This document shows positions 8,989 to 46,031 of a stretch of 64,000 nucleotides of DNA, in pieces. The DNA lies in the NCBI GenBank assembly GCA_016125225.1, contig WGME01000003.1:744001-808000 (forward strand). The letters are read 5' to 3'. Each line of letters opens with the position of its first letter. Within the stretch, counting starts at the first letter, position 1. The DNA is from a bacterium (GTDB lineage Bacteria > Planctomycetota > Planctomycetia > Planctomycetales > Planctomycetaceae). The translations under genes were made by a program, and so were the position numbers. The notes under the pieces were generated by a model that worked only from the letters and a program-made list of their open reading frames with translations, was not told the origin of the DNA and searched no databases.

Positions 8989-9051
8989 AGATTCGCTTGG
9001 ATATCACCACTGATCTTTCTTCTCACAGTCTCTGGCCAGGAACGTTGATTT

Positions 9052-11493
9052 ATGCTCTCACTCACTCGACTGAGCCACTGTGTGCTGGCCTTCTGCTGTT
9101 CAATGACAATGCTGCTGGCTGAAGAAGCCGCTTCACCGCAGATTGTGTCGATTCAAACCTGGCCCGAAAAGCTGGTGCTGCACGATGTGCGCGATGCACG
9201 GGGCCTGCTGGTCATCGGTCGTGATGCCGCAGGGAAAACCTATGACTTGACTGCCGATGCAGTCGTCTCCGCGACCACACCTCACATCGAGATCGATGCG
9301 GAACGTTTCGTCAATCCGCGCGAAGTCGGGTCTAGTGAGGTGATCGTCACGGCGAAAGGCCATGAGCAACGCGTGCCGGTTGTGGTGGAAAACGTCGAAC
9401 CGCGGTCGATCGATTATGTGCGCGACTTTCTACCCCACCTCAGCAAGCACGGCTGCAATCAGGGAACGTGCCATGGTGCCCAGCAGGGTCGCAAAGGTTT
9501 CAAGTTGTCGCTGCGAGGTTATGATCCGCTCTACGACTATCGGGCGTTGGTCGATGATGTGTCAGGACGCCGCTTCAATCGGACCGAACCGGCACAAAGC
9601 CTGATGTTGCTGAAGCCCACTCAGGGGGTACCGCACGAAGGGGGCTTCCTCTTCGATGAACAATCACGAGCCTATCGCGATATTGCCCAGTGGATCGCTG
9701 AGGGTTGCCAGTTTTCTGAGACGACCCGGCCTGTGCGACTGGAACTGTTCCCCAGCGCTCCCACGCTCGATCGTCGCGGCGAACGGCAGCAAGTTCAGGT
9801 GATTGCCCATTATGACGATGGTCAATCACGGGATGTCACCCGCGATGCGATGTTTGAAGCTTCGAATTTTGAAGTCGCCACGGTCACCAAAGGGGGACAG
9901 ATTCAGGCTGTCCGCCGTGGTGAAACCGCCGTGCTGGTACGATATGAGGGAGTATATGGCAATCTGAATGTCACCGTACTGGGCAACCGTGAGGGCTTTG
10001 TCTGGCAACCGGCTCCCGAATTCAATTTCATTGATCAAAAAGTGAACCAGAAGCTGGAACGGTTGAAAGCGTTGCCATCGGCTGTGTGTACCGATGCCGA
10101 ATTCCTCCGGCGAGTCACTCTCGACCTGACGGGCTTACCTGCTTCCGCTGACCAAACACGGGCATTTCTCGATGACTCTCGTGACTCACGGTCGAAGCGC
10201 GAGGCATTGATCGACGATCTCCTGAACTCCCCCGAATATGTCGATCACTGGACGCTCAAATGGAGCGACCTGCTCCTGTCGAACCGCAAGTTCATTAAGG
10301 AACAGGGGGTCTGGGGCTTCCGCAACTGGATTCGACAGTCGCTGGCGGAAAACAAACCTTATGACCAGTTCGCTTTCGAATTGATGACAGCGTCAGGGAA
10401 CTCGCTCGAAAACCCTGCCGCCAACTACTACCGCATCGCCCGGGAACCACGCGAGGTCATGGAGAACATGACGCAGGTCTTTCTGGGGACGCGATTCGTC
10501 TGTGCTCAATGCCACGACCATCCGTTCGAAAAGTGGACTCAGACCCAATACTTCGAACTGTCGGCCTACTTTGGTGGTGTCGGACGAAAAGCGCAGGGGA
10601 CGGAAGCCGAAGTCATCTACGATTTGCGGAACCCTCAAACGGTGATGCACGGAGGCACGGGACAACCTGCCCCGCCAAAGTTCCCCTTCACCGTCACCGG
10701 GTATGAAGCGTCCGGCAGCGATGTTCCCCGACTGCAACTTGCCAAGTGGCTCGTCTCGGCGGAAAACCCCTACTTCGCCAAGAGTCTGGTGAATCGTTAC
10801 TGGAGCTACCTCCTCGGCCGCGGAATTATCGACCCGGTCGATGATATCCGTCTGAGCAATCCCGCTTCGAATCCTGAACTGCTGGACGCCTTAACCGCTG
10901 ACTTCATCGCCCATGATTTTGACCTGAAGCATCTGCTGCGGACGATCGCGGCGTCGCAGACGTATCAGCGCAGCTTCATCACCAATGAATGGAACAAAGA
11001 TGATGATGTGAACTATTCGCACGCATCTCCCCGGCGACTCCAGGCAGAGCAGTTGTATGATGCCATCATGGTGGCGACAGGAGCCCCGATGGGAGTACCG
11101 GGAGCACCCACCGGCTTCCGGGCTTCTCAACTTCCCGATGCCGCTGTGAATGTGCCGTTCCTCGATATGTTCGGCCGTGCCCCGCGCGAGTCACCGTGTG
11201 AATGTGAACGATCTTCTGAAGTTAGTCTGGCCCAGACGCTGACGCTCATCAACGGCCCGACCATTTCCGATGCCATTGCTCATCCGCAAGGTCTGGTGCA
11301 GAAACTCGTCACACAGAATGTGACCCCAAAGGAAGCCGTGGCCGAGATTTATCTGTCCGTGCTCAACGGCTTGCCGGACGACACCGAATCGAATCAGGGA
11401 ACAGCTTACGTCACTGAACATGGGCTGCTGGTGGGTGGTCAGGACCTGATGTGGGCCTTGATTAACAGCCCGGCGTTTCTGTTTAATCGGTGA
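9052..11493 (+). CDS. Ig-like / DUF1549 / DUF1553 exported protein with haem motifs
   Basis: 813 residues. The signal peptide ends near LLAEEAASPQ. An N-terminal Ig-like domain is followed by GCNQGTCHGAQQGRKGFKLS, a C-X4-CH site. A BIG2-like beta domain (about residues 245-310) ends VLVRYEGVYGNLNVTV. DUF1549 (VNQKLERLKALPSAVCTDAE onward) has CAQCHDHPFEKWTQ, a canonical CXXCH. DUF1553 has LAKWLVSAENPYFAKSLVNR, ending ALINSPAFLFNR. These abundant planctomycete surface proteins have no settled function; co-occurrence with sulfatases and polysaccharide genes has suggested roles in polymer degradation. Probably an operon with the WD40 protein upstream. Confidence 0.93.
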   Translation: MLSLTRLSHCVLAFCCSMTMLLAEEAASPQIVSIQTWPEKLVLHDVRDARGLLVIGRDAAGKTYDLTADAVVSATTPHIEIDAERFVNPREVGSSEVIVTAKGHEQRVPVVVENVEPRSIDYVRDFLPHLSKHGCNQGTCHGAQQGRKGFKLSLRGYDPLYDYRALVDDVSGRRFNRTEPAQSLMLLKPTQGVPHEGGFLFDEQSRAYRDIAQWIAEGCQFSETTRPVRLELFPSAPTLDRRGERQQVQVIAHYDDGQSRDVTRDAMFEASNFEVATVTKGGQIQAVRRGETAVLVRYEGVYGNLNVTVLGNREGFVWQPAPEFNFIDQKVNQKLERLKALPSAVCTDAEFLRRVTLDLTGLPASADQTRAFLDDSRDSRSKREALIDDLLNSPEYVDHWTLKWSDLLLSNRKFIKEQGVWGFRNWIRQSLAENKPYDQFAFELMTASGNSLENPAANYYRIAREPREVMENMTQVFLGTRFVCAQCHDHPFEKWTQTQYFELSAYFGGVGRKAQGTEAEVIYDLRNPQTVMHGGTGQPAPPKFPFTVTGYEASGSDVPRLQLAKWLVSAENPYFAKSLVNRYWSYLLGRGIIDPVDDIRLSNPASNPELLDALTADFIAHDFDLKHLLRTIAASQTYQRSFITNEWNKDDDVNYSHASPRRLQAEQLYDAIMVATGAPMGVPGAPTGFRASQLPDAAVNVPFLDMFGRAPRESPCECERSSEVSLAQTLTLINGPTISDAIAHPQGLVQKLVTQNVTPKEAVAEIYLSVLNGLPDDTESNQGTAYVTEHGLLVGGQDLMWALINSPAFLFNR

Positions 11494-30654: not shown

Positions 30655-32205
30655 TTAGCGGTTGATGGTCTCAAGTGCTGAAATCGGTCCTCGATCATTC
30701 GCTGGCTGCACCACAGGTGCCGATGGATTTGGCTGAGGCAACCGCGGAGCCGACGGATCGATGTTGCTTGCTGTCGGAGCCGGCGCCGCAACGGCTGCGG
30801 ACTTCGGTGCCAACGGGAACGGCTCGATGACCATAGCCGGGGCCGGTGTCGTCGGAGCCATGCCGATTGGCTTGGCGACAATCCGCTCAGTTGTCGGTTT
30901 CGGTGTTTCCGCCGGAGTAGCGGTGACCGCGTCTTTCGCCGATGGAGCGGGCAAGCCGGGCTGCAGCAACGGAACAGGAATCGGCAGCGGAGTTGTCTCG
31001 GGGGCTGTCACCACGGGAGCAGGTGTCATTGGAGCGGGCGACGTGGGTGCTGGTGGCAAGGTTGTAGCCGGGGTTTCCGGGGTAATAACGGCGGTCATGG
31101 TCTTCGGCGGTTGTACCCGATCACGATAGATCCGCAATGCATTGAGAGAATGGTACAGCGGACCACAATCGACCGAGGCCTTGCGGTGAGTAATCAACTC
31201 TGATGACAACACATGCACGGCATTCCGCACCCATTGTTCCTGCAGACGTTCCTGCGGCAATGCCACCGAGAGGAACTCCATGGTGTGACCGGTCGTGTTG
31301 AACCGCTGGTTCATGTCCTGTGTGTAACCCGGCCCCTTGTAAAATTCTTTCGAGAAGGAACCGTCCGAGTTCTGCATCCGCCGGGCGTATTCGACGTATT
31401 GTTTGACCTTCTGATCGGCTTCCAGCCACGGACCACGCAAGGTGCGACCGCTGGCGATGTATTTGTCGCGAGCACGGGTCAAGGCAAACAGGTTGTGATT
31501 GCCGCCGCACGGGCCATACGGAGTATTCATGCGGACCTCGTGTTGCACGAGGGTCTCCATGCTCCAGGCTTGTCCCCACTGGTTGGTCCACTGGGCATCA
31601 ACTTTGAGATAGTTGATCAGGGCCCATAACACCCAGGTCACTTCCCCGCCGGTGTTGACTTCCATCATGGTGCCATTGAGCAGGTCGCCAATGGTGACTT
31701 CGCCCTGATCGGTTTTGAACTTGTAATCGACCGGCAAATGCGATTCAGAGAGCAGCGCCAAAGTTTGCGCGGGGTGTCCTTCAAACGCCATCGGTCGCGT
31801 GAAGGGATGGAACTTGGCCCCGTGCTGAGTTTTGAGGAACAGGGGCTGGCCATCGAACCGCGGGTTGGCCGTGGCCACCCATTCAATCGCCGAGACTTTC
31901 TGTTCGCCGAGCTTTAATTGAAAGTCCTGGTGATAGGCCAAAATGCCATGAAAGATTTGCCAGGGGCTATGGTAGTTCGCGGTGAGATACCGCTGCCCAT
32001 TCAGACGGATGGCCTCATCGATCTGTTCGATCAATGGATCTTTGGCAGTTTGCACGTCAGCAATCGGCTGAGCGTCAGACACCTGTGTAATGGGCAAACG
32101 CTGGGGCGGCACCCCGACCTCGGGCGCTTGCGCCCAAGCGGATGAAAGCGGCAGACTCAAGACACACACACTCGCCAACCGGGCGGCCCGACACCCTGAC
32201 TTCAT
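30655..32205 (-). CDS. Exported protein with Pro/Ala/Thr-rich C-terminal tail
   Basis: 516 residues. A signal peptide (AARLASVCVLSLPLSSAWAQ) is followed by a 350-residue helical domain: PWQIFHGILAYHQDFQLKL, GGEVTWVLWALINYLKVDAQ, MNTPYGPCGGNHNLFALTRA and RRMQNSDGSFSKEFYKG. The repeated helices and QNSDGSF motif are reminiscent of alpha/alpha-toroid (prenyltransferase or squalene-cyclase-like) folds, though I would not assign an activity. Residues about 385-515 are a low-complexity tail (TTLPPAPTSPAPMTPAPVV), likely a cell-surface spacer. The downstream start at 32205 gives a clean signal peptide, so the longer frame is rejected. Confidence 0.75.
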   Translation of the reverse strand: MKSGCRAARLASVCVLSLPLSSAWAQAPEVGVPPQRLPITQVSDAQPIADVQTAKDPLIEQIDEAIRLNGQRYLTANYHSPWQIFHGILAYHQDFQLKLGEQKVSAIEWVATANPRFDGQPLFLKTQHGAKFHPFTRPMAFEGHPAQTLALLSESHLPVDYKFKTDQGEVTIGDLLNGTMMEVNTGGEVTWVLWALINYLKVDAQWTNQWGQAWSMETLVQHEVRMNTPYGPCGGNHNLFALTRARDKYIASGRTLRGPWLEADQKVKQYVEYARRMQNSDGSFSKEFYKGPGYTQDMNQRFNTTGHTMEFLSVALPQERLQEQWVRNAVHVLSSELITHRKASVDCGPLYHSLNALRIYRDRVQPPKTMTAVITPETPATTLPPAPTSPAPMTPAPVVTAPETTPLPIPVPLLQPGLPAPSAKDAVTATPAETPKPTTERIVAKPIGMAPTTPAPAMVIEPFPLAPKSAAVAAPAPTASNIDPSAPRLPQPNPSAPVVQPANDRGPISALETINR

Positions 32206-32686
32206 GAGATCAAATCCTGATTGAAGATTCACAAGGGAAGGAGTGACAAGCGGCGACAATGTCCATGCGGGGCGCTGCACAGGCGATGGTCGGCAGGAAT
32301 CCGTTCTCCGGGAAAACATCGGTTGATTCAGCATCGATCCGCATCATTCCCATAATCACTTCGGCATGACCATCCAGTAGGTTAGGTCGGCAAGACATAA
32401 TCCCTTTCCCGAGAATAACCGGAGCGAAGAGCCACCTTTCCCGAAAAGGAACAATTCCCGCAGAAATCCCATTTTGACCTTGGTTCACGATTTCTTTTGC
32501 AGCGGACCAGTCCGTTGCCGCCGACATGATTGTCAGAGGGTCTGGAAGGAAGCGGCAAGTTGTGGCGGTTGGGAGTAGTCGAGCGCCACGCTCAGCGTCA
32601 TAATGGGTAAACATTATCGACAATAGCAGATGTGCTGACCTGAAGGCATCGATCCAAAGTAACGCTGGGTGATCAGGGGGACAGAT
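32206..32686. other. 481-base divergent intergenic region
   Basis: Between two divergently transcribed genes, so it should hold both promoters. An open frame on the minus strand fills most of it, but its translation shows no family features and I treat it as chance. I see no RNA gene, long repeat or convincing promoter box. Confidence 0.5.
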
Positions 32687-33451
32687 TTGGACTTCTTGCA
32701 GACAGCCGAAGAGGCAGCACGTATTGGTGGCCAGGTGCTACGCAGTTGGGCATCGCGTTTCACGGTTCAGGAAAAGAGTCGGGCGAATCTCGTCACCGAA
32801 GCAGATCATGCTTCGCAGGCGGCGATTTTTGAGTTCATCTCGAGACGGTACCCGCAACACAGTTTTCTGGGCGAAGAAGGGCTGACCACGAGTGGTCCCG
32901 ATCCCCGGTACCGCTGGATCATTGACCCCCTCGATGGGACCACAAACTACGTTCATAGCTTCCCGTACTACGCCGTCTCGATTGGACTGGAACAGGATGG
33001 GGAATTGATCGCCGGGGCGGTGTACAACCCGGTTTCTGATGAGATGTTTCTGGCCAGTGCCGGAAGGGGCGCCTGGTTGAACCGCCGCCCTTTGCGTTGT
33101 TCCGGGGTGGAAAGGCTTGATCAGGCGATGGTCATTGCCAGTCTGCCGGTTGTCAGCGGACCCCAAGATCCGGCCGTACAACGCTTTCTGAAAGTTCTGG
33201 GATGCGTGCAAACGGTTCAGCGGACCGGATCGGCCGCCATGAATCTGGCGTATCTCGCGGCTGGACGGATCGACGCTTTCTGGTCGACCAGCTTGAAACC
33301 CTGGGACATGGCGGCGGGGGTGCTGCTGGTCCGCGAAGCGGGGGGAAAAGTGACACAAATCAACCAACAAACATTTGACGTGAACCATCCGAACCTGTTG
33401 TCGAGTAATGGTTCCGGTATTCACGAGGAGTTATCGCAGCTCTTGATTTGA
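32687..33451 (+). CDS. Inositol monophosphatase family phosphatase
   Basis: About 254 residues. Li+-sensitive Mg2+-dependent phosphatase fold. Metal-binding motifs: FLGEEG, WIIDPLDGTTNYVHSFPYYA (Asp-Pro-Leu-Asp-Gly-Thr) and, near the end, SLKPWDMAAGVLLVREAGG. The family removes phosphate from inositol-1-phosphate, 3'-phosphoadenosine phosphate or sugar phosphates; this one looks like SuhB-type IMPase. TTG 32687 has AGGGGG six bases upstream; GTG 32669 is the alternative. No operon partner on either side. Confidence 0.93.
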   Translation: MDFLQTAEEAARIGGQVLRSWASRFTVQEKSRANLVTEADHASQAAIFEFISRRYPQHSFLGEEGLTTSGPDPRYRWIIDPLDGTTNYVHSFPYYAVSIGLEQDGELIAGAVYNPVSDEMFLASAGRGAWLNRRPLRCSGVERLDQAMVIASLPVVSGPQDPAVQRFLKVLGCVQTVQRTGSAAMNLAYLAAGRIDAFWSTSLKPWDMAAGVLLVREAGGKVTQINQQTFDVNHPNLLSSNGSGIHEELSQLLI

Positions 33452-33587: not shown

Positions 33588-36500
33588 TTGTTGTCGACCG
33601 AAACTACTCACGCTGCCCTTGGTTCGTTCCGGCAGGAACGGATTGCGACGTCGGTGCGCCCGCTGACTTTCGGTTCTGGCTGTCGGTTGCTTTTTGCCTT
33701 GGCATGGGCCTGGTTGTGCTGTCCGCATGTGGGTTGGACGCAGGAGACAACTGGTTCCAAACCCCCGGCAGCGGCGACAACGCCTCCGTCGGCCCCATTG
33801 CAGGTCGCCCCCACCATCGGCCCAGCAGTGGCCCCAGGTACGAAACCCTCGGAGGGTTTAGGTCTGCTGGAGACCAAGGTTCGCTACCTGTTCAACTCGC
33901 AAGGGGACTTAGTGCCTGTGCCCCTGGATGCTCGGCTGGAAGACTTTTTGAAGTCGTTGGAGCAGGACCGGGATGCGACGGTGAGAGTCAATCCCGTGGT
34001 GTCGGTCACCAGTCTGGAATTAACCGGGACCGCTGATGATCAGTTAGCCACGCTCGATGCCATCGTGCGGGTGCAGGTAACGGGTTCGAATCAACCCCTG
34101 CTCTTTCCGCTGGGCTTCAACGAAGGCGTGCTGCTGCAGGAAGCCAAAATCACCGGACCCGGCCGTGTCGTCTTCGGCGACAAAGACCCTCAGCAGGGGT
34201 ATCGCTGGTGGTTCGATGGCAACGGTAGTTATGAAATGCAGTTACGACTCGCGGTACAGGTGCGTCGCGTGTCGCCTTGGCGACGGTTGCAACTGGCGTT
34301 ACCCAACTCGCCCGTGACGACGTTACAGGTCACGCTTCCCGAAGCAAAACCGGTCATCAAGCTGCCGGAAGAGATCGTGTGGGAAACGAAGTCACCCACG
34401 GAATCGACCACGTCGGTTCGTGCGCTGGGGATTGGGAATCGTCTTGATCTGCAATGGCAGCCCACAATTCCTGTTGATAACCAGCGCACCTCCTTCGATG
34501 TGAATACGACCTTGCTGGTGCGTCCCGATAGTCGTGGCTTTCTTCTGGAAGCCACGCAATATGTGCGCGCTTTGCAGGGAACCTTCAGCGAATACACGGT
34601 CCATTTGCCTGAACACGCCGAACTGCTGCAGGCCGAAGGAACCGAAGTCAAACGCACCCGCATGGTCCCGGAATCGCAAAACCAGATTGTGGTGGAACTG
34701 AATTCCCCCACGCGTGGTCCCGTGATTGTGAAGTGGAAACTGCATCTGACTCATAAGACCAGCAAACGCAGCATACTCAAGGGATTTCAGGTCGATCAGG
34801 CACAAACCGAATCGGGCGAAATCGGGTTATTGTCTCCCGATACCGCACGCTGGTCGAATGTCGAGACCGCCAGCCGCAATCTGGAACGCATGAATGCCGG
34901 CGAACTACGCAGCACACTGGGGGGCGCACAGATTGTGCGGGCCTACCGTTTCTATGACCAGCCGTTTGAACTTCCTTTAGAACTGCAGGCCGCCGATCCC
35001 TATCTTGATGTCCGCCCAACCTTGGTGCTTTACGCGTCGAGAGACGAACTCCGTTTAGATGGCCGCTTTGAGATCCGGTCCTTTCGCGGGCAATTGAATG
35101 AGTTGTCTTTGGATTGGTCCGGTTGGAAGAACGACGGTTGGAAGCTGGAACCCGCTCCCAGCAATGAGACGTTTTACTCCAGCTTTCCCGTGGAAGATCC
35201 GCAAGATGCAGACCGTCTGCTGATTCCGATTGAGAATCCTCCGAATACTTCGTTCGTCGTACGCTTCACCGCAGTGAAACAGGCTATCAACAAACAAACC
35301 GCGTTGAATCTGCCTCGGTTGTTGAATGCCGCTCTATCCCGCACACGTCTTGTCTTTCTGCATGCCGAGAACGTCGATGCGGAATTGATGCCGCGTGGTG
35401 AGTCCGTGCTCCGGCTGGCGAGTCGCGACGATTCCGTGACGTCTGAAGCCGTTGGCTATGATGCCGGGTTGGAAACAAAGCTCTACTGGCTGGAGTCGGA
35501 TGAGCGGCAGTTTGCCATCACGGTGACTCCGCAACCGATTCATGTGACGGTGCAGAATCAATCGCAGGTGGCCATCAGTGATTGGCATTTGCAGATTACG
35601 CAGGCATTGCAGCATCACGTGCAGTACGAACGCTTATCGACAGTCACGATTGCCGTGCCGACCGAGATCGCACAAGCCGTGCAGTTCCGGCTGGGCGATG
35701 AAGAATTGCGACCGCAATGGCTGGTGCCGGAAGACCCGAAGGTTCGCTGGGCACAGTTGACGTTGCCGCGACCGACTCTGGGTCTGTTTGAACTGCAGGC
35801 AAGTTGGGAACAACCCTTGCCGGTCGATCTCCGTAGTGAGAAAGATGCCGCGCTGGTGATTCCGTTTCTGAAAAGTCTCTCGGGAAACATCACGTCACAG
35901 AGTCTCGAATTTCTTCGACCCGCCTGGTACGAGATCTCCTCGGTGGACGCACAGTGGCAACTGGTCCATTCCACGCGTGAATCGAACCGTTGGACCGATA
36001 CCACTGGCAGTGATTCCTTCACGGGATTGATCATTCCGACGACGGGCAACGATGGGGCGGAATTCGTCACCCAACGTGCCTGGATTTCCGTGATCAATGA
36101 CCGTACGGGATTGCAGCAGTACCGCGTGCAGATGCGGCTCTCTGGCTCCGCACCCGGGCTCAATGTGCAGCTTCCAGCCGCCAGCCTGGTCACACAGTTC
36201 TATCGAGATGGAGAACTCATTCCCGAATCGCAGATCATCGAATCTCCGACAGGCTCGCGGCGATTCACTCTGTCTTGGTCGACCAATGCCACGGAACCGG
36301 CGGACCGCTGGTTGACTATCGAATATACCTTGAAGCAACCACCGATCACCGGATTGTCGGCACTCGTGCGGACAGAGGGCCCGACATTCCCACAAGTTCG
36401 CTGGGCATCGCGGGTGCTCTGGCAGATTCAGGTGCCGAACGATCAGCATGCGTTCCGTCTTCCCGACAATGCCGTGCCGTTGTACGAATGGAGACGGGCT

Positions 36501-37070
36501 GGAGTCGTCTGGCAACGTGAGTCGGCTATCACCACCGATCAGTTGCAGGCTTGGCTGGGCGGACCATTGCCATTCTCCTCGGAGCGTCTGGTTTCCTCCG
36601 GTCATGAATACACCTTCAGCCAGTTCGGCCCGATTGAAAACCTGCGACTAAGAACCTTGAGCAGCGCCATGTTGTTGGTGTGCGGAGCGGGCAGCACGCT
36701 TCTGCTCGGATTCCTGGTGATCAAAGTTCCCGCGATGCGCTCGCTGTTGGCGGTGTTATTGATGTTGAGTGCCGGGATGGCGGCGGCCTTATGTTTCCAA
36801 CCAGAACTCGAACTGCTGTTACAACCGATGGTCATCGGAGGTTTGTTAGCGGGGCTATTGGGACTGCAGGAATATCTGAGTACGCGGCATCAGCGCGGTA
36901 CCATCCTGACATTGTCCGGTTCGCCCAGCGAGTTGCGGATCGATCCGCGAGACGGTTCTGCCACGCATAGTCTGCTGGTCCGTTCGCATGATTCGGCAAC
37001 CGTCTTCCGCACCGCCTCCAGCGAAGACGGGTCGCAAGGACGGATTCCTGTAGAAAGCCATGCCGGATGA
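33588..37070 (+). CDS. Giant exported/membrane-anchored protein, one module
   Basis: 1160 residues, function unknown. A signal peptide near residues 30-50 (LLFALAWAWLCCPHVGWTQ) is followed by about 970 extracytoplasmic residues of mainly beta-type sequence. A motif VQLPAASLVTQFYRDGELI sits near residue 857, then QVRWASRVLWQIQVPND. A cluster of three membrane helices follows (about 1028-1100: LLVCGAGSTLLLGFLVIKV; LLAVLLMLSAGMAAALCF; MVIGGLLAGLLGLQEY), then a short cytoplasmic tail. The same order recurs twice in the next gene, with which it overlaps by 4 bases. The exact start is unsure: TTG 33588 or GTG 33654, the latter giving a compact signal peptide. Confidence 0.85.
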   Translation: MLSTETTHAALGSFRQERIATSVRPLTFGSGCRLLFALAWAWLCCPHVGWTQETTGSKPPAAATTPPSAPLQVAPTIGPAVAPGTKPSEGLGLLETKVRYLFNSQGDLVPVPLDARLEDFLKSLEQDRDATVRVNPVVSVTSLELTGTADDQLATLDAIVRVQVTGSNQPLLFPLGFNEGVLLQEAKITGPGRVVFGDKDPQQGYRWWFDGNGSYEMQLRLAVQVRRVSPWRRLQLALPNSPVTTLQVTLPEAKPVIKLPEEIVWETKSPTESTTSVRALGIGNRLDLQWQPTIPVDNQRTSFDVNTTLLVRPDSRGFLLEATQYVRALQGTFSEYTVHLPEHAELLQAEGTEVKRTRMVPESQNQIVVELNSPTRGPVIVKWKLHLTHKTSKRSILKGFQVDQAQTESGEIGLLSPDTARWSNVETASRNLERMNAGELRSTLGGAQIVRAYRFYDQPFELPLELQAADPYLDVRPTLVLYASRDELRLDGRFEIRSFRGQLNELSLDWSGWKNDGWKLEPAPSNETFYSSFPVEDPQDADRLLIPIENPPNTSFVVRFTAVKQAINKQTALNLPRLLNAALSRTRLVFLHAENVDAELMPRGESVLRLASRDDSVTSEAVGYDAGLETKLYWLESDERQFAITVTPQPIHVTVQNQSQVAISDWHLQITQALQHHVQYERLSTVTIAVPTEIAQAVQFRLGDEELRPQWLVPEDPKVRWAQLTLPRPTLGLFELQASWEQPLPVDLRSEKDAALVIPFLKSLSGNITSQSLEFLRPAWYEISSVDAQWQLVHSTRESNRWTDTTGSDSFTGLIIPTTGNDGAEFVTQRAWISVINDRTGLQQYRVQMRLSGSAPGLNVQLPAASLVTQFYRDGELIPESQIIESPTGSRRFTLSWSTNATEPADRWLTIEYTLKQPPITGLSALVRTEGPTFPQVRWASRVLWQIQVPNDQHAFRLPDNAVPLYEWRRAGVVWQRESAITTDQLQAWLGGPLPFSSERLVSSGHEYTFSQFGPIENLRLRTLSSAMLLVCGAGSTLLLGFLVIKVPAMRSLLAVLLMLSAGMAAALCFQPELELLLQPMVIGGLLAGLLGLQEYLSTRHQRGTILTLSGSPSELRIDPRDGSATHSLLVRSHDSATVFRTASSEDGSQGRIPVESHAG

Positions 37071-40000
37071 ACCGCAGACTGCTGTGGCTGGCTGTGGGCC
37101 TGGTAACAGGATGGGTGGTGACGGTCCGCGCGGCTGAGGAAGCGCCACCGCGACTAACGAAAATCGAAGTCCCGGCTGAGTATCCCGAGAAGTGGCCCGC
37201 CTACTGGAGAGAACTGAACGCCGTTCCGCGAGCCGAGTTTGAACGAGTCTGGACGGCACTGCAACGTCAGGGACAGCAACAGCCAGTCGTGTCTCTGGAG
37301 CACGTCACTTATTCCGCCACATTGGATGGGCATTCGCTGGTGGATGGTCAGGGACATCTTGCACTGAGTCCCACCTCCCAGCCCACTCGCTGGTTGACCT
37401 TCTCGCCGTGGAATATGGCCATCTCCTCGATGCACTGGGCGAAGTCGACTGAGCCAGCATTATGGGGCGTCAGTAGCGATGGGCAGTTCTGGCTGGCTGC
37501 CGATGATTCGGCGAGAGAATTGGATTTTACGTGGTCACACCGGGGGACTGCCGTTGGTCAGCGCACCGTCTTTGATTTGCAGCTTCCCATGGCGCAGGCG
37601 AGCCATCTGCGTTTGCGTGTTCCCGCTCATATTACACTGAGCAGTCCACAGGTTCCCGTACGTCAGGTGCTTGCGACCGAGTCCACGGCGAGTGGCTGGA
37701 ATGAGTGGGAAGTTTTGTTGGGGAGTGACAGTCGGGTCTCGTTGATTGCGGAGCCTTTGGCCAACGTGGCTCCTCAGCCGATGGTCTGTTATCGCCGCCA
37801 GATGATGGCGGCACTGCGCGAAGACCACATGCGTTTTGAGGCCACCTTTCAGTTAGAGGTCTTGAACGGGGAAATCCGTGAACTGGAACTGACAACACCA
37901 GCCGCCGCTCATGTGTATGCCATTACCTGGGGCAACAATCTGCCGTTGGAATGGTCGCGCGTCTCCACGTCTGGGCCACGCGACAGCTTGCGCATCCGGT
38001 TTCCCGATCCGCAAGCGGGCGTGTTACGGTCCATTCGCCTGGAAGGCATCGTCAGCCAACGGCCAGGAGCCGCGATTTCTCTGCCTCAGATTGAATTGCC
38101 CAACGGTGTTTTCCGATCCGGGGAAATCCAGGTGTCTGTCGCCAGACCGCTCATGCTCAGCACGCAGCGGATGACAGGATGCCGCCCATTGGCCCCGATG
38201 CTGGCCTCTTCGGAAGGCGAAACGCATCAATTTTTGCAAACGACCTCGCTGGTTCAGTTGATCGTGGAAGTAAGACGACCACGATCGCTGATTCATGCCC
38301 AGGTCTTCTCGACGTTAAAGCTGTCGGCCGATGAATGGGCCTGGAACAATGAACTGCTCTGGACTTCAACATCGGGGACGGCCTTTCAACTGGCGGTCAA
38401 GGTTCCCGAGGGTTGGAATGTCACCGAGGCTTCCACGCTGTCCGCGACAGGAGAGATTCAGCCGATCCATTGGGACGCCACCACGGAGACCGATGGCAGC
38501 CAGCGGCTTGCGCTCGAATTGCTGGAAGGAGTCACGCCAGATCGTCCCCGTCGGATTTTTATCGCGACGCGTCGAACCGTGCAAAGCGGCCAATCGCAGT
38601 TTGCCTGTCCGGTGCTGGAACCGCTCGACTGCCAAAGCGTAGCCACGCTGGTCTGTGTCGATGGCGGTGAAAATTATGCCATCTTCCCCACGGCACCGGG
38701 GAACTGGACCGAGTGGACGCGCGCCGAATTGCCCGAAACGTGGCAGCAGATGATCTCGACACCGGTGCTGGACGCCGCACTGGAAACGTCCCGATGGTAT
38801 GAAATTCCGCAAGGACGTTCCGATCTGGCACTGACGTTGTATTCGCAACCCGAACCGGTCACAGCCGATATTCACATTCAGGCCGAAGCCAAAGAAGGCT
38901 TACTGACGGAGACCATTCGACTGCGTGTGAAGCCTGCGTCGGTCTCGCATCTCACCCGATTACTGGTGGCCTTTTCTGAACTGAGTACCGATGTCGCCTG
39001 GACGGTCCGCGAGCCAGACCATTTGAGTCTGATCAGTTCACGCATTCCGGTTTCTCATAGCCCCAGCCGCGATACGCTGCCCGCTGGAGAATTGTGGGAA
39101 TTGCAATTGCCGGACACCGATGCTCCAGAACTCACGATTGAAGGGGTTCGAACACGGCCGCTCTCGTTACCTTCCGCAGTGGGATTGGCCTATCTGCCGC
39201 AGGCGCGAGTTTATTCGGCCACTGTTTCGGTCAGCACGTCCGAAACTTCGGGCCTGCAACCGCTGACACGTGGCATGATCGAAATCCATTCGGGGGCGAC
39301 AAAGACCGTTTCGAGCCCTGCCACCGCCATGAATACCCAAACATGGGGCTACGATTCTCATGATGCGCAACTGATGCTGGTCTCGCGGCGCAGTTCGCTG
39401 CAGGAAGCCCCCTGCCTGGCGCATCTGCATCTGCAATCGACGTTATCAGCCTTGCAATCAGGAGCGGACTTTCATCGCCTGGTGATCAGTCTGTCGGCCC
39501 ATGCGAAGTCTCTGCGGATACTTCTGCCAAAGCAGGCCGATATCGAATCGATCATGCTCGATGGTCAGGTACTAACGGTTGCCGACGACCAGACAATCGT
39601 CATCCCGCCACAGGTGACACCAGCTCACAGTGAACTGCGAATTCAGTTTCGACTGAGGCAAACTCCGGGTTTCCTGCGAGACCTGCGACAGGTTCCACTG
39701 CCAATTTGCGAAGATGTGGTATGGACGGAATGCCAATGGGATTTTTCTCTCCCTCCCGCAGCCATGCTGGTGCGGGAACCGAAGGGACTGCGGCTGACAA
39801 CGGCCGTCCGCGAACCGAGTTGGTTTGATCGAATTTTCGGTCCGATGGGCCGTAGCACTTCTCCTCTGTTTCAGCCGTGGAATCCTTCGACGTGGGTAAC
39901 CCTTTCCGGCAGAAACCCGACTGCACTCAACGCCGATCCGGTTCAATTCGATGAGTTTCAGGTTCCGGCACAATGGCAGAAGCTGACGGCCTATACCCCC

Positions 40001-43000
40001 GCACCGGCGCCGATCTGGGTGGTCGAATCCTGGCATCGGGGGCGCATGCGAATCCTGGCCTGGTTGGCCATGGTGCTGACCTCGATCGTGGTGATCTCCA
40101 TTCGCCAGGCCGGTCTGACGGTCCGCACGCGCTTTGCGTGTGTCTGGTTTGCAGTCTGGATCGGCATTGCCGTGGCCATTATGCCTCCTTGGGAAGAACC
40201 GGTTGGCGGGGTTATCGCGGGGTCCATCATTGCCTGGCTGCTGCCACGCCGGTGGCTATGCTGGCAAGCACCGAAAGCCATCGAAGAACCGGTCGTGCCG
40301 GTCGGCAGCACCCAGAGTTTTCTCTTGCCCAAACAGGTGGTGACTTCTGGACTCGTATTGGCTTCGCTGGGACTAACATCCTGGGCCGAACCTCGGCTGC
40401 CTGTCACCGCTGGCATCGAAGAAATTGTCCTGGCGCCGGTCGATTCAGACGGCACACCTGCCCGCAAGCTGTCCCTGGTGTATCTCCATCCGCGCACCTG
40501 GAGTCAGCTGCGCGAACGGGCGGCTCGTTTGAAACCGAGTAGTCCTGATCTGCTCCTACAGTCGGTCTGGATCACGGCCAAACCTGGTTCCGGATCGCGC
40601 GTGCCCGTGAAGCTGGAAGCCGATGTGCTGGCGTTTGGCAGCGATCCCGTTTGTGTCCTTGATCTGCCCAGTGCGATGTTTGCCTCGTCAACGAGTCAAC
40701 TTTGCCGCGTGGATGGAGCACCGGCGAGTCTGACGCCGCAGCCATCCCGCATCGGTCAGCAGGTAACCTGGCCACGCCCCTCCACACCAGTGAGTGCGTT
40801 AGGGAGTCCGGTCCCCAGCCGACATCGATTGACGCTCGAATGGCAACAACCGTGGCAACCCGCCGGACCTCGTAACACCATGGATCTGTCCCTGATCCCA
40901 GCGGCTATCACCACGGCAGAACTGGTCATGGGGGAATCCACTCTCCCAATGACCGTACCGACTGTCGATCACAAAGTTTCGACTGTGGTGATCGGGCATG
41001 CCCAGCCAAAGTTGCAGCTCGACTGGCCCGCCGACGCGCGAGCGATTGCAGCGACCGAGATTCATGTGGATGTGGTGGAAGCGTGCGAGCTGACGGGCGA
41101 TGTGCTGGAGACTCGCAGTCGCTTGACCGCACGACCACGGTCCGGAGCACTGTCGGCCTTCTCGATTCAACTGCCGCTCCACGCCGTCGTTCGTCGCTGG
41201 AACTGCAACCAGACCGCTGATTGCCGTTTTGTAGCCGCGCCTGATGGACGGCTGACCGCTGAGACACAACTCGAACTCCTGACCGAAGCCGACGTGGTGA
41301 TGGAACTGGAATATGTCACTCCCATCAAACCCTTCCAGTCAGAATTGGCATGGAGCGGTTTGGAAGTCCTGGGAACACCCTCTTTGCGGGTAAGTGATCT
41401 GCAACGCTGGTTCAGTCTGTATGCCCCCATCGATTATCAGGTGCAGCCATTAATGCCTGAAACGACGGGATTAATCCTCAGCAACTACAATCAAGTCGCG
41501 GACCGTTTTCGAGGTCTGGTGCAGGATCGCATCCCGCAACTGACTTACCAGATCTTGCAGCGCAATCCCCTGACACTGCAATTGCTGCCCAACACGGCGA
41601 AGAGGAAGCTCTTGCAATGGCAGCAAACGGGTACCATTCAGGGGGACCGCTTGAAGTGGGAGATTGAAGGCGAAATTGAAGCCTCGGGCGTTCCGGTCTA
41701 CACCCACCAACTGCTGGTCGATCGCCGCCTGACGATCGACTCCATCTCCATTCGCGAGCGGGGCACCGAGCGTTTGGCGGCCCGTAGTGGCATCCGTTCC
41801 TCCGGAAACTCTGGCTCCAATCGCATCACACTCTATCTGACAGATCCCGTCAGTGAAGTGCAGAAGATTACCATCTCGGCGAGCATGCCGATCAGTTCCG
41901 ATAATTCTCTTTCGCTGCCGAATGTGCGTTGCGAAGATGCCGAACTCGTCCAGGGACGCGTGACCTTACGAACCAATGATGCCTTTGATATCCACTGGCT
42001 CAGTGCCCGTGGCTTGCGCGAGCGGCCCGTTGATTCCCAGTCATCGCCCGCAACTGATGATCAACGTCATGAATGGCAGTTCCAACAACTCGATCTGGAC
42101 TGGCGTGCCACGGTCAAGGTTTCAACTCCGGTCAGCCGCACTCAGGCTCGGGCTGTCCATGTGATTTCCAGTGATGATCCCCAGTCGCTGCAGTGTCAGT
42201 CGCTTTGGCGGATACCGGCAGAACGCTTGCGAGGGGCTTCCGCGATTCTGGTCCCGGCTCCTTGGGAAATCGCTTCCGATTCCGCGATCATCGGAGGCAG
42301 TTTTCAAGTGACACGCTCTCCGCAAGGAGAATGGAGTGTTGGTCTGGAAGCCGATCCGACGGCCTCGGATGTCTTCGTCAAGCTGCGACTTCGCATTCAA
42401 CGCGGGGCCTTGAAGTCGGATCACATCCCGCTGCCTCGCCCGTTGGGAGATATCGCTGAAGATCTGGAAATCTGGACGGCTGAGCATACCCGTTTACCTC
42501 AATCTCCGTTATTGAAGATCTCTTCGACGGAGACCGCTACCGGTCCCGAGGATTGGTCGCGCGGTGTCTGGCAGATGCCCGTTCCTCAGGAAACGGACCG
42601 CTATCGTTGGCTGGCGACTCCCACGGAAACCGTGGAATTGCTGCCAGCCATCGACGCGACGGCTGCATCGCTGCAGGTGCCCTGGGTTGAGCATCTGCTT
42701 TGGCGAGGCACCACCAAGGCCGTCCGTGGAATGACGCAGATTCGGCTGGCGTCGCCGCAGCTCACTCTCACGGTACAGATGCCCCACGAGATTCGCTTTC
42801 AAGCCGCCGTCATTGATGACCAGCCGGCAGAAACCCGTGTGGAGACCGAGGGGGAAGTGCAGATGTCGTCCAAAGACGGCCGGCCATTTCGCAGTGTCCG
42901 GCTGATCTGGGACCAGGCCTTCGCCGAATCGGCCAGTCCGCTGGGTGTCTGGGAGTGCCAGTGGCCACATCTGGCCCATGCTCAGGTCCAGCAGTTGGCC

Positions 43001-43693
43001 GTCTGCGTGATCCCGGAATCGACCACCCAGGTCCGTGGGCGTGGTGACTGGACCGCCGGCGATTGGATTGATCGGTTGCTGCTGCGATTAGAAGTTCAGG
43101 GCGATACCTTGGCCACAGCGCAAAATTCGCCCGATTTCCAGCCCGAAGTGGAAGAATTCCGGGAGCAATATGCCGAAGCTGCCACGGAATTGGGAGATGA
43201 GCACCAGCAGTTTGATCAGGCTTCTCCTCAGCGACATTCTCGCTGGAAATCGATCGTCGAGGCCGTCAATAGTCTGCAACCAGTCTCGAACGGAAGTGGC
43301 ATCCAGCGCGAGAATTACTTTGAACCCCGCTATCCTATGATGCTGGTTGCCAAACGCGATCTGTCGTATGGCATGGTTCAGCCGGCGGATCAGAATTGTC
43401 GCTGGTGGTTATTCGATCGTCATTGGCTGTACGGGTTGCGGGGCCTGTTGCTGACAATGATTACCTGGCCGCTGCTGATTCTGGCTTCGGGCCCTGTGCG
43501 CAGTCCCTGGTGGCAAGCCCACCCCTATGTCACCACGGCCGTACTGGGGTTGGTATGGTGGATCTGCCTGATCCCCAGCCTCTTCGGGTTTGCCTTGCTG
43601 GCGTTCGGGCTGTACCGAATCGCGTTTCCGCCCGCCTCAGATCAAGGCGGTTCATCTGCCTCGACCAGTTCGGCCCCTGCCGTTGCTTCGTGA
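37067..43693 (+). CDS. Giant exported/membrane protein, two tandem modules
   Basis: 2208 residues, function unknown. The signal peptide is LLWLAVGLVTGWVVTVRA. Module A: about 950 beta-rich residues, motif ILLPKQADIESIMLDGQVL near 819, then WTECQWDFSLPP and membrane helices near 990-1065 (ILAWLAMVLTSIVVISI; WFAVWIGIAVAIM). A new hydrophobic segment (VVTSGLVLASLGLTSWAEP, about 1090-1110) starts module B: a second large beta-rich region, motif VQMPHEIRFQAAVIDDQPA near 1904, WECQWPHL, and C-terminal helices about 2121-2190. ATG overlaps the previous stop (ATGA), so the two genes are coupled. The 3' end overlaps uppP by 52 bases. Confidence 0.88.
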   Translation: MNRRLLWLAVGLVTGWVVTVRAAEEAPPRLTKIEVPAEYPEKWPAYWRELNAVPRAEFERVWTALQRQGQQQPVVSLEHVTYSATLDGHSLVDGQGHLALSPTSQPTRWLTFSPWNMAISSMHWAKSTEPALWGVSSDGQFWLAADDSARELDFTWSHRGTAVGQRTVFDLQLPMAQASHLRLRVPAHITLSSPQVPVRQVLATESTASGWNEWEVLLGSDSRVSLIAEPLANVAPQPMVCYRRQMMAALREDHMRFEATFQLEVLNGEIRELELTTPAAAHVYAITWGNNLPLEWSRVSTSGPRDSLRIRFPDPQAGVLRSIRLEGIVSQRPGAAISLPQIELPNGVFRSGEIQVSVARPLMLSTQRMTGCRPLAPMLASSEGETHQFLQTTSLVQLIVEVRRPRSLIHAQVFSTLKLSADEWAWNNELLWTSTSGTAFQLAVKVPEGWNVTEASTLSATGEIQPIHWDATTETDGSQRLALELLEGVTPDRPRRIFIATRRTVQSGQSQFACPVLEPLDCQSVATLVCVDGGENYAIFPTAPGNWTEWTRAELPETWQQMISTPVLDAALETSRWYEIPQGRSDLALTLYSQPEPVTADIHIQAEAKEGLLTETIRLRVKPASVSHLTRLLVAFSELSTDVAWTVREPDHLSLISSRIPVSHSPSRDTLPAGELWELQLPDTDAPELTIEGVRTRPLSLPSAVGLAYLPQARVYSATVSVSTSETSGLQPLTRGMIEIHSGATKTVSSPATAMNTQTWGYDSHDAQLMLVSRRSSLQEAPCLAHLHLQSTLSALQSGADFHRLVISLSAHAKSLRILLPKQADIESIMLDGQVLTVADDQTIVIPPQVTPAHSELRIQFRLRQTPGFLRDLRQVPLPICEDVVWTECQWDFSLPPAAMLVREPKGLRLTTAVREPSWFDRIFGPMGRSTSPLFQPWNPSTWVTLSGRNPTALNADPVQFDEFQVPAQWQKLTAYTPAPAPIWVVESWHRGRMRILAWLAMVLTSIVVISIRQAGLTVRTRFACVWFAVWIGIAVAIMPPWEEPVGGVIAGSIIAWLLPRRWLCWQAPKAIEEPVVPVGSTQSFLLPKQVVTSGLVLASLGLTSWAEPRLPVTAGIEEIVLAPVDSDGTPARKLSLVYLHPRTWSQLRERAARLKPSSPDLLLQSVWITAKPGSGSRVPVKLEADVLAFGSDPVCVLDLPSAMFASSTSQLCRVDGAPASLTPQPSRIGQQVTWPRPSTPVSALGSPVPSRHRLTLEWQQPWQPAGPRNTMDLSLIPAAITTAELVMGESTLPMTVPTVDHKVSTVVIGHAQPKLQLDWPADARAIAATEIHVDVVEACELTGDVLETRSRLTARPRSGALSAFSIQLPLHAVVRRWNCNQTADCRFVAAPDGRLTAETQLELLTEADVVMELEYVTPIKPFQSELAWSGLEVLGTPSLRVSDLQRWFSLYAPIDYQVQPLMPETTGLILSNYNQVADRFRGLVQDRIPQLTYQILQRNPLTLQLLPNTAKRKLLQWQQTGTIQGDRLKWEIEGEIEASGVPVYTHQLLVDRRLTIDSISIRERGTERLAARSGIRSSGNSGSNRITLYLTDPVSEVQKITISASMPISSDNSLSLPNVRCEDAELVQGRVTLRTNDAFDIHWLSARGLRERPVDSQSSPATDDQRHEWQFQQLDLDWRATVKVSTPVSRTQARAVHVISSDDPQSLQCQSLWRIPAERLRGASAILVPAPWEIASDSAIIGGSFQVTRSPQGEWSVGLEADPTASDVFVKLRLRIQRGALKSDHIPLPRPLGDIAEDLEIWTAEHTRLPQSPLLKISSTETATGPEDWSRGVWQMPVPQETDRYRWLATPTETVELLPAIDATAASLQVPWVEHLLWRGTTKAVRGMTQIRLASPQLTLTVQMPHEIRFQAAVIDDQPAETRVETEGEVQMSSKDGRPFRSVRLIWDQAFAESASPLGVWECQWPHLAHAQVQQLAVCVIPESTTQVRGRGDWTAGDWIDRLLLRLEVQGDTLATAQNSPDFQPEVEEFREQYAEAATELGDEHQQFDQASPQRHSRWKSIVEAVNSLQPVSNGSGIQRENYFEPRYPMMLVAKRDLSYGMVQPADQNCRWWLFDRHWLYGLRGLLLTMITWPLLILASGPVRSPWWQAHPYVTTAVLGLVWWICLIPSLFGFALLAFGLYRIAFPPASDQGGSSASTSSAPAVAS

Positions 43694-44885: not shown

Positions 44886-44972
44886 TCATCGCCGGTGAAG
44901 TGTGCGACACTGCACCGCATGCCTGCCTCAGGGTGGCTCACCGTTCCCGTCTTTCTGCGAGTCGACACAGCC

Positions 44973-46031
44973 ATGCCGATCAAATTTCGGTGCAACTATT
45001 GCCGACAGTTTCTCGGTATTTCCCGCAACCGTGCGGGGGGCGTGGTCGATTGCCCCACCTGTGGCCGCACCATTCGTGTCCCCGATCTCGATGGGTCACT
45101 GGCCCCAGTGCCGACGCCGGGACTCAACGCCGAGGACGAACACTTAGCACGCGCTCTCGCCGAGTTGGGGGCGCTGGCCCATGTCGATGTGTCAGCCCTG
45201 CCGGTCGCGGAAGATCTTGAGGAACCTGACGACGAGATTCCGCAGCCTTTGCCCGAACCCGTGCCGATGGAAATTCCGATTCCCATCACGCCCTCGGTTG
45301 TCAGTCTCGATCTGCCGGCCATACCGTCCTTACAAACCGCACCGACATCGCAAGCACAAAGCGATCTTCTTGCGGAACTGGCCGCGGCGAGCCCTCATGA
45401 GTTTCCGGTTTCTCAGCCAACGGTCATCACGCCTCAGATCAGTCCGAAAGGGCTGATCCTCGTGGCGTTCGCTCCGGTGATCAGTCTGCTGCTGGGCTTC
45501 GGTCTCGGCTGGTGGTTCAGCAGTCTATGGCGTCCGGCGAATGGGGAATCACTGGCAGCCGTTCCTGTGGCGGCGAAGGAACAAACCGCAGATGTGCGGG
45601 GTCGCATCAGTTATCAAACGGAGGATGGAGCCATCGAGCCCGATATCGGTGCCACGGTGTTATTGCTACCCGATAACTGGGATGCCGCCAGTCGTTTGGG
45701 ACCAGCGGGGTTACGTCCGGCAGATGCCGAAGCCGATCAGCACTTTGTCGCTGCTGCCATCACGGGAATGGATGGGCGTCTGGGACTGACCGACGCGCAG
45801 GGCGAATATCAAATCTCATTGCCACACGCGGGCGCTTACCGCATTCTGGTCATCTCACGGCTGTCAGCCCGAGCCGATGAGGTGGCAATCGCCGACATGG
45901 ATCTCGCGAACCTCCAACATTATCTGCAAGACCCCGAAGTCACGATCGGTCAACGGTCGTATCTTCTTAAAAGCGTGGAAGTCCGCGATGGTCACGCTAC
46001 GGTGTGGGATCATCAATTCTCACAACCGTAG
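44973..46031 (+). CDS. Zinc-ribbon single-pass membrane protein
   Basis: 352 residues. An N-terminal zinc ribbon (KFRCNYCRQFLGISRNRAGG then DCPTCGRTIRVPDLDG: two CxxC pairs) should be cytoplasmic. An acidic Pro-rich linker follows (EEPDDEIPQPLPEPVPMEIP), then one membrane helix near 170-190 (LILVAFAPVISLLLGFGLGW). The outer domain of about 150 residues resembles a carboxypeptidase-regulatory/Ig-like fold: GRISYQTEDGAIEPDIGATV, LTDAQGEYQISLPHAGAYRI. This ribbon-linker-helix layout is frequent in planctomycetes. ATG 44973 is chosen because it opens directly on the ribbon. Function unknown. Confidence 0.8.
   Translation: MPIKFRCNYCRQFLGISRNRAGGVVDCPTCGRTIRVPDLDGSLAPVPTPGLNAEDEHLARALAELGALAHVDVSALPVAEDLEEPDDEIPQPLPEPVPMEIPIPITPSVVSLDLPAIPSLQTAPTSQAQSDLLAELAAASPHEFPVSQPTVITPQISPKGLILVAFAPVISLLLGFGLGWWFSSLWRPANGESLAAVPVAAKEQTADVRGRISYQTEDGAIEPDIGATVLLLPDNWDAASRLGPAGLRPADAEADQHFVAAAITGMDGRLGLTDAQGEYQISLPHAGAYRILVISRLSARADEVAIADMDLANLQHYLQDPEVTIGQRSYLLKSVEVRDGHATVWDHQFSQP

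Follow-up and report, generated by a model that had tools for sequence, protein, structure and literature searches.

A planctomycete gene pair encodes three homologous giant modules, with tandem beta domains and C-terminal membrane helices predicted in each

We analysed two overlapping giant genes, termed A and B, in a 64,000-nucleotide stretch of a planctomycete genome of the family Planctomycetaceae (assembly GCA_016125225.1, contig WGME01000003.1, positions 744,001 to 808,000 of the forward strand; this whole stretch is called the window). Gene A encodes one copy and gene B two copies of the same module, and a module comprises about five tandem repeats of ~170 amino acids (aa) followed by membrane helices, or about 15 repeats in total. 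We hold this three-module repeat architecture with high confidence. Judged from predicted models, the repeats probably adopt the fold of the N-terminal domain of M1 aminopeptidases, arranged in tandem as in ribophorin I/Ost1 of the oligosaccharyltransferase (OST) complex. A preliminary description of this DNA had reported two coupled open reading frames (ORFs) of 1160 and 2208 aa with a 4-base overlap, which we recovered at the same positions; the ~170-aa repeats inside each module had been missed. The features of the pair are listed here.

33588..37070, + strand: gene A, one-module giant protein of 1160 aa (ORF, TTG start)
33675..33737, + strand: hydrophobic N-terminal segment of A, signal peptide or anchor, residues ~30-50 (read by eye)
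33996..36533, + strand: five ~170-aa repeats of A, residues ~137-982 (self profile comparison, strand pattern of the model, repeat hidden Markov model)
36663..36896, + strand: three or four C-terminal membrane helices of A, residues ~1026-1103 (hydropathy, helices of the model)
36897..37067, + strand: C-terminal tail of A, probably cytoplasmic, carrying DSATVFR (sequence)
37067..43693, + strand: gene B, two-module giant protein of 2208 aa (ORF, ATG start)
37139..40291, + strand: B module 1 (B1), residues ~25-1075, with helices from residue 994 at its end (hhalign to A, hydropathy)
40322..40384, + strand: hydrophobic re-entry segment ahead of B module 2, residues ~1086-1106 (read by eye)
40379..43690, + strand: B module 2 (B2), residues 1105-2208, with helices 2121-2180 at its end (hhalign to A, model, repeat hidden Markov model)

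The relationship of the three modules was determined by profile-profile comparison with hhalign, using family alignments of 23 rows for A, 23 for B1 and 19 for B2. Residues 104-1090 of A aligned with residues 44-1058 of B at 99.9% (E 1.6e-31), A aligned with B from residue 1090 onward (B2) at 99.9% (E 4.2e-31), and B1 aligned with B2 at 99.5% (E 3.1e-22). When one profile was reversed, none of the three module comparisons exceeded 3.6%. Omitting the five A/B rows that had initially been chosen by size left the outcome unchanged (99.9, 99.9 and 99.6%). By these profiles, A, B1 and B2 are collinear homologues along their full length. The earlier proposal of three copies of one beta-rich, envelope-type module was thus borne out (99.5-99.9%, with reversed controls below 4%), and a chance recurrence of short motifs was rejected on the basis of the reversed-profile controls.

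The membrane helix clusters begin at A 1027, B 994 and B 2121 by hydropathy, and an LP...DG motif is located at A 860, B 818 and B 1903, that is 167, 176 and 218 residues before the respective cluster (A, B1, B2); the preliminary description had put this distance at 170-220 residues. It had also regarded the motif as common to the three modules, and indeed all three occurrences begin in column 1000 of a 9-row module alignment. A second proposed element, an ECQW string repeated in both halves of B, did not hold up. The two strings fall in columns 1082 (first) and 1069 (second) and are not equivalent. The W of the first is conserved in 20 of 23 aligned B rows; the second is unconserved and, lying in another column, was dismissed as coincidental. 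The signal peptide ascribed to A is visible by eye as a hydrophobic segment but was not flagged by a hydropathy scan, which did flag the N-terminal hydrophobic segment of B, and the fresh hydrophobic start claimed near residue 1090 of B corresponds to the segment at ~1086-1106. Note that both proteins are fast-evolving, with 35% (A) and 29% (B) identity to their counterparts in two other genomes of the same genus. In 10 of 23 A proteins, the tail carries a motif resembling SEDPTxLR or DSATVYR, by a pattern written after viewing the sequences; it is a possible site for phosphorylation or docking.

The pair is widely distributed. In a single-protein search of 40 genomes, including the window's own, A was found in 27 (24 of the 25 genomes of its family) and B in 22 (21 of 25). 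The gene following A in genomes G007 and G015 scored 230 and 314 bits, respectively, with a B profile built without it. Across Planctomycetota, the A profile matched at least 103 of 294 genomes sampled, a lower bound obtained with two candidates scored per genome. A search of genome contigs returned two named loci (L097 and L098), and one of viral contigs returned none. The survey of pair co-occurrence suggested in the preliminary description was carried out on 26 AB-type loci (L079, L090, L092 and L093 excluded; L098 is the same contig as L064). Both genes were called in 23 of the 26, and in all 23 they lay no more than 54 nucleotides (nt) apart, with a spacing of -577 to +54 nt and of exactly -4 nt in nine; the large overlaps result from the longest-ORF rule. 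At L077, A was missed because of an antisense ORF, yet a protein search placed it beside B. L087 and L088 contained A without B within the stretch examined.

Locus L081 of the window's genome holds another pair, whose proteins have 1131 aa (A') and 2696 aa (B'). For clean comparisons, L090, L092 and L093 were kept out of the A'B' set; where scored, their genes favoured A or B over A' or B', and the B gene of L092 matched none. In the clean sets, A' was the best match for 19 of 20 A proteins and A for 9 of 9 A' proteins. Likewise, B1' was the best match for 19 of 21 B1 modules and B1 for 9 of 9 B1' modules. These reciprocal best matches indicate that A and B1 diverged before the two pairs split. 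Among B2 modules, 5 of 17 preferred B2' (10 preferred A'), and 2 of 9 B2' modules preferred B2 (7 preferred A); that B2 may already have been distinct at that time is suggested only by the common gene layout. In two distant genomes (L103 and L107), three one-module genes stand in tandem, and the first has its best match in A', the second in B1' and the third in B2'. On the evidence of the A'B' pair and these split-gene genomes, we rejected a recent duplication confined to the window pair. Thus, of the internal duplication proposed earlier, the three homologous modules stand but not an origin local to the pair: the module duplication is old.

Each module in turn has an internal periodicity. Profile self-comparison of A aligned residues 103-792 with 271-964 at 98.7%, an offset of 168 aa. 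Matches at the double offset reached 95.8-96.0%, and those near the triple offset were weak (30-41%). Repeats in A start near residues 137, 297, 472, 651 and 826, and the strand pattern read from the A model restarts near model residues 48, 208, 383, 562 and 737, which argues for about five repeats in a module and, if this is extended to all three modules, for about 15. In A', repeats 2, 3 and 4 were related to one another at 95-97%, and repeats 1 and 5 were individually not significant. A hidden Markov model built from 27 A' repeats of nine genomes matched two repeats in the window's A (E 3.2e-9 and 7.0e-9) and one in B module 2 (window positions 41702-42118, E 1.5e-4). It found matches in 32 of the 59 genomes of the class, and the frames of the matches listed were at least 1100 aa long, except for one of 861 aa. 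In genomes G340 and G343, matches fell on two or three contigs, indicating more than one module locus in each; the number of repeats per gene may vary among such genomes.

For structure prediction, AlphaFold2 was given nine rows, namely the three modules from each of the window, L097 and L098, and A and B2 were modelled. The A model had a mean predicted local distance difference test score (pLDDT) of 73 and a predicted template modelling score (pTM) of 0.38. The values for B2 were 55 and 0.30, with residues 231-350 at a pLDDT of 78-90, residues 351-400 at 63-76 and the repeats beyond residue 600 poorly predicted. The top Foldseek matches for both models were chains of the OST complex (A, 6s7o_E, E 2.3e-8; B2, 6s7t_E, E 1.0e-10). 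The PDB entries name the complex only, and we take both chains to be ribophorin I/Ost1.

Structures ranked by Foldseek were then compared with VIA-align. Residues 135-293 of A superposed on the N-domain of ERAP1 (Z 12.4) with a root-mean-square deviation (rmsd) of 3.5 Å over 153 residues, and residues 821-1025 on a malarial M1 enzyme (Z 11.9) with 3.4 Å over 158 residues. Overall, the first and last repeats of A and the second and third of B2 superposed on M1 N-domains at 3.4-4.0 Å over ~150 residues. Comparison of A with yeast Ost1 gave a Z of 12.5 over 309 residues with an rmsd of 18.5 Å, indicating that the mutual arrangement of the domains differs. B2 matched a human OST chain with a Z of 15.8 (6.5 Å over 317 residues), and the M1 enzymes scored lower (Z 9.9-11.1). 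The repeats therefore are predicted to resemble the non-catalytic N-terminal domain of M1 enzymes such as ERAP1, APN, LTA4H and PepN (PF17900). Unlike M1 aminopeptidases, A and B have no recognised catalytic domain, and neither is reported among the PF17900 matches. As in ribophorin I/Ost1, the modules are predicted to place tandem beta domains of this fold before membrane helices. They differ in having about five domains in each of three modules instead of two domains, and several membrane helices. We consider this tie to ribophorin I and the M1 N-domain a predicted resemblance of fold, with homology unproven.

Sequence searches placed the proteins in no known family. Neither A nor B of the window matched a Pfam or NCBIfam family at E<=1, and the only match to PDB sequences was streptavidin (E 0.65). 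Family membership was rejected, as no A, B, A', B' or repeat with a printed score reached a curated cut-off. The lowest E value among the other alignment members was 2.7e-5 for TgpA_N in 2 of 22 A proteins, which we take as a match to membrane helices. PF04597 (Ribophorin I) was found in none of the 40 genomes at E<=10 and was absent from the matches listed for 22 A and 17 B proteins. PF17900 gave 15 matches over the cut-off in 13 of the 40 genomes, all in other genes (14 in frames of 600-975 aa), and was absent from the matches listed for the 27 repeats scanned. Among the Pfam matches listed for A or B proteins there was no catalytic peptidase domain, and Pfam located no vWA domain inside A or B. 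A profile of 14 planctomycete M1_N domains showed weak similarity, in register, to the merged A' repeats, at 30-77% depending on the choice of rows. With L090, L092 and L093 included, the value was 77%, and with them omitted 30% (E 5.6e-4, one comparison). The reversed control gave 0.1-0.2% and single repeats 0.5-69%. Against whole A', with rows including these three loci, there were five weak matches (0.3-31%) at residues 107, 274, 450, 620 and 827, each in its first part. Against A itself, the profile reached 1.8% at best.

Giant, fast-evolving proteins of stacked beta domains could also act as adhesins or help to build surface structures, crateriform pits or stalks for example, and integrin alpha chains were indeed among the Foldseek matches, as was inter-alpha-inhibitor heavy chain 1 (ITIH1, E 2.7e-4), both as beta-sandwich matches. 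Superposition on these was partial or poor (rmsd ~14 Å for ITIH1 and at least 17 Å for integrins among the matches listed). Typical surface adhesins, however, do not have the membrane helices found at the end of every module. No sorting signal was recognised, and the conserved neighbours are genes for proteases, UppP and sigma/vWA proteins. We therefore consider an adhesive or structural surface role improbable.

The neighbourhood of the pair was analysed in the 26 AB loci. One gene recurs directly upstream of A on the same strand.

32669-33451, + strand: inositol monophosphatase gene, directly upstream of A (Pfam neighbour scan)

It precedes A in 12 of the 26 loci. A BacA/UppP gene is convergent downstream in 6 of the 26, as it is downstream of the window pair, and one to three trypsin/PDZ (HtrA-like) genes are convergent downstream in 10. 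All nine proteins scanned from the HtrA-like cluster contain trypsin and PDZ domains. Downstream of B in L064, L068 and L075, HtrA/Deg-type protease genes of varied sizes form tandem trios. In the window, positions 44895-46031 encode a 378-aa protein with a sub-threshold zinc-ribbon match, a relative of which lies upstream of the inositol monophosphatase, A and B genes in L064, and positions 30655-32334 (- strand) encode a protein of 559 aa that looks secreted, has a long tail rich in Pro and Ala, and matched no family at E<=1.

These protease genes, together with OST chains (taken as ribophorin I/Ost1) being the best fold match of both models, would fit substrate-handling subunits that bring clients to an envelope enzyme or protease, as the non-catalytic ribophorin I may do for OST. 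In a review, Ost1 is described as having two similar luminal beta-sheet domains and one membrane helix and as binding glycosylated peptides, malectin with ribophorin I is said to associate with misfolded glycoproteins, and the functions of the non-catalytic OST subunits are called still not clear (PMC7226087). A 2016 study states that little is known about their function or evolution (PMC4973528). However, the AB loci showed no recurrent same-strand gene for an envelope enzyme, and convergent genes need not share a function. The inositol monophosphatase upstream is usually a cytoplasmic enzyme. A role in substrate handling for an envelope enzyme or protease thus appears very unlikely to us.

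Elsewhere in the phylum, relatives of the module genes are linked to genes for an extracytoplasmic function (ECF) sigma factor and a vWA protein. We examined 60 loci from beyond the window's family, of which 57 belong to other classes and three to the window's class; they were picked non-randomly from the hit list, and some of them share a family. A vWA/YfbK gene was located upstream in 18 of the 60 (within 400 nt in 17), and an ECF sigma gene stood ahead of the vWA gene in 13. Eight of the 18 vWA loci then had one module gene of ~2100-2300 aa and no separate A. Pfam domains VWA and YfbK_C were present in all 17 vWA proteins scanned (L150 left out), and zf-HC2 exceeded the cut-off in 7 of the 13 complete ones, four of the 17 being truncated at the start. 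Sigma domains were confirmed by Pfam in L097, L109 and L117 and otherwise identified by profile. At L097 (Planctomyces sp. MAG D1_MAG_00055), the ECF sigma gene (8854-9414, - strand) is divergently upstream of A, and at L117 one is found 155 nt upstream of A', likewise divergent. Genes for an ECF sigma factor and a putative anti-sigma protein of the zf-HC2/vWA/YfbK_C kind stand directly ahead of distant A/B relatives but are absent beside the window genes. Sigma and vWA profiles had no match in the 64-kb window, and the only YfbK gene of its genome is located at L179:9105-11111 (G000:C12), away from the pairs. We know of no ECF sigma/vWA anti-sigma system that includes giant module proteins, and neither the A/B family nor its linkage to sigma/vWA genes was found described among the literature matches listed, where no function for these proteins was found either, in line with the preliminary description.

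The gene order ECF sigma, vWA, module in 13 of the 60 outside loci, and the single ~2100-2300-aa module gene that follows the vWA gene in eight, would suit a sensor arm, in which a ligand or strain sensed by the repeats is relayed to the vWA anti-sigma protein, upon which the ECF sigma factor is released. Yet the loci of the window's class have no vWA gene and the window's genome nevertheless retains two pairs; in addition, three giant modules are much for a sensor. We regard a sensor arm as unlikely.

We favour a different interpretation, namely that A and B are both anchored in the inner membrane, are produced jointly from their overlapping genes and together would display the same periplasmic arm three times. 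The C-terminal helices speak for anchoring in the membrane, with periplasmic repeats, and a hydrophobic N-terminus, a beta-repeat part and C-terminal helices fit a membrane protein with a periplasmic arm. In each arm, about five beta-sandwich domains with the M1 N-domain fold would follow one another, about 15 over the three arms. Enzyme-less domains of this type in tandem fit a binding or scaffolding role, and in the planctomycete envelope the arms may serve as a scaffold without catalytic activity or as a hub that binds clients. For related systems in other parts of the phylum, we propose control by, or signalling to, an ECF sigma factor that a vWA-containing anti-sigma protein would hold, so that they would serve envelope homeostasis. 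The sigma/vWA and protease neighbourhoods point in this direction; neither is universal and neither has been shown to matter. Topology, complex formation, binding and regulation are what we infer here, and we give this reading, a periplasmic scaffold with ~15 binding domains that is anchored in the inner membrane and serves envelope homeostasis, roughly an even chance.

Several observations weigh against this interpretation. In the searches made, no M1_N, Ribophorin_I or PDB M1/OST chain was matched by sequence. The A and B2 models were built on the same nine sequences and so are not independent, the low pTM values (0.38 and 0.30) make the domain arrangement unreliable, and a fold does not give a function. 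Of the neighbouring genes scanned in the window, none is an HtrA gene. As to regulation, 42 of the 60 outside loci were without a vWA gene (9 of these had less than 600 nt upstream), and zf-HC2 remained below the cut-off in two complete vWA proteins (L142, L153) and was absent at E<=0.01 in four of the 13 (L131, L141, L145, L149). Sixteen loci of the window's class, nine of A'B' type and seven of AB type, had neither a sigma nor a vWA gene. A further 23 loci of the class, the whole window included, had no vWA gene, and a sigma gene was present only at L097. Near the genome's single YfbK gene there was no A-type module gene and no sigma gene of the same type. With no vWA gene beside the pairs of the window's class, sigma/vWA regulation is unsupported here.

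The planctomycete periplasm is unusual and enlarged, and many giant genes of these bacteria have no known function. For one such family there is now a predicted fold, together with a repeat unit, a distribution across the phylum and a regulatory context, which makes its role testable. The essential genes of Planctopirus limnophila include a phylum-specific operon with secretion genes (PMC10632474). There is a slim chance that A and B are true, much enlarged bacterial relatives of ribophorin I, forming a client hub of about 15 domains that in much of the phylum is coupled to a vWA anti-sigma protein. If so, quality control of the envelope by this system would differ from the RseA/DegS type. Should the likeness to ribophorin I reflect ancestry and not convergence, it would bear on the origin of a non-catalytic subunit of the eukaryotic glycosylation machinery.

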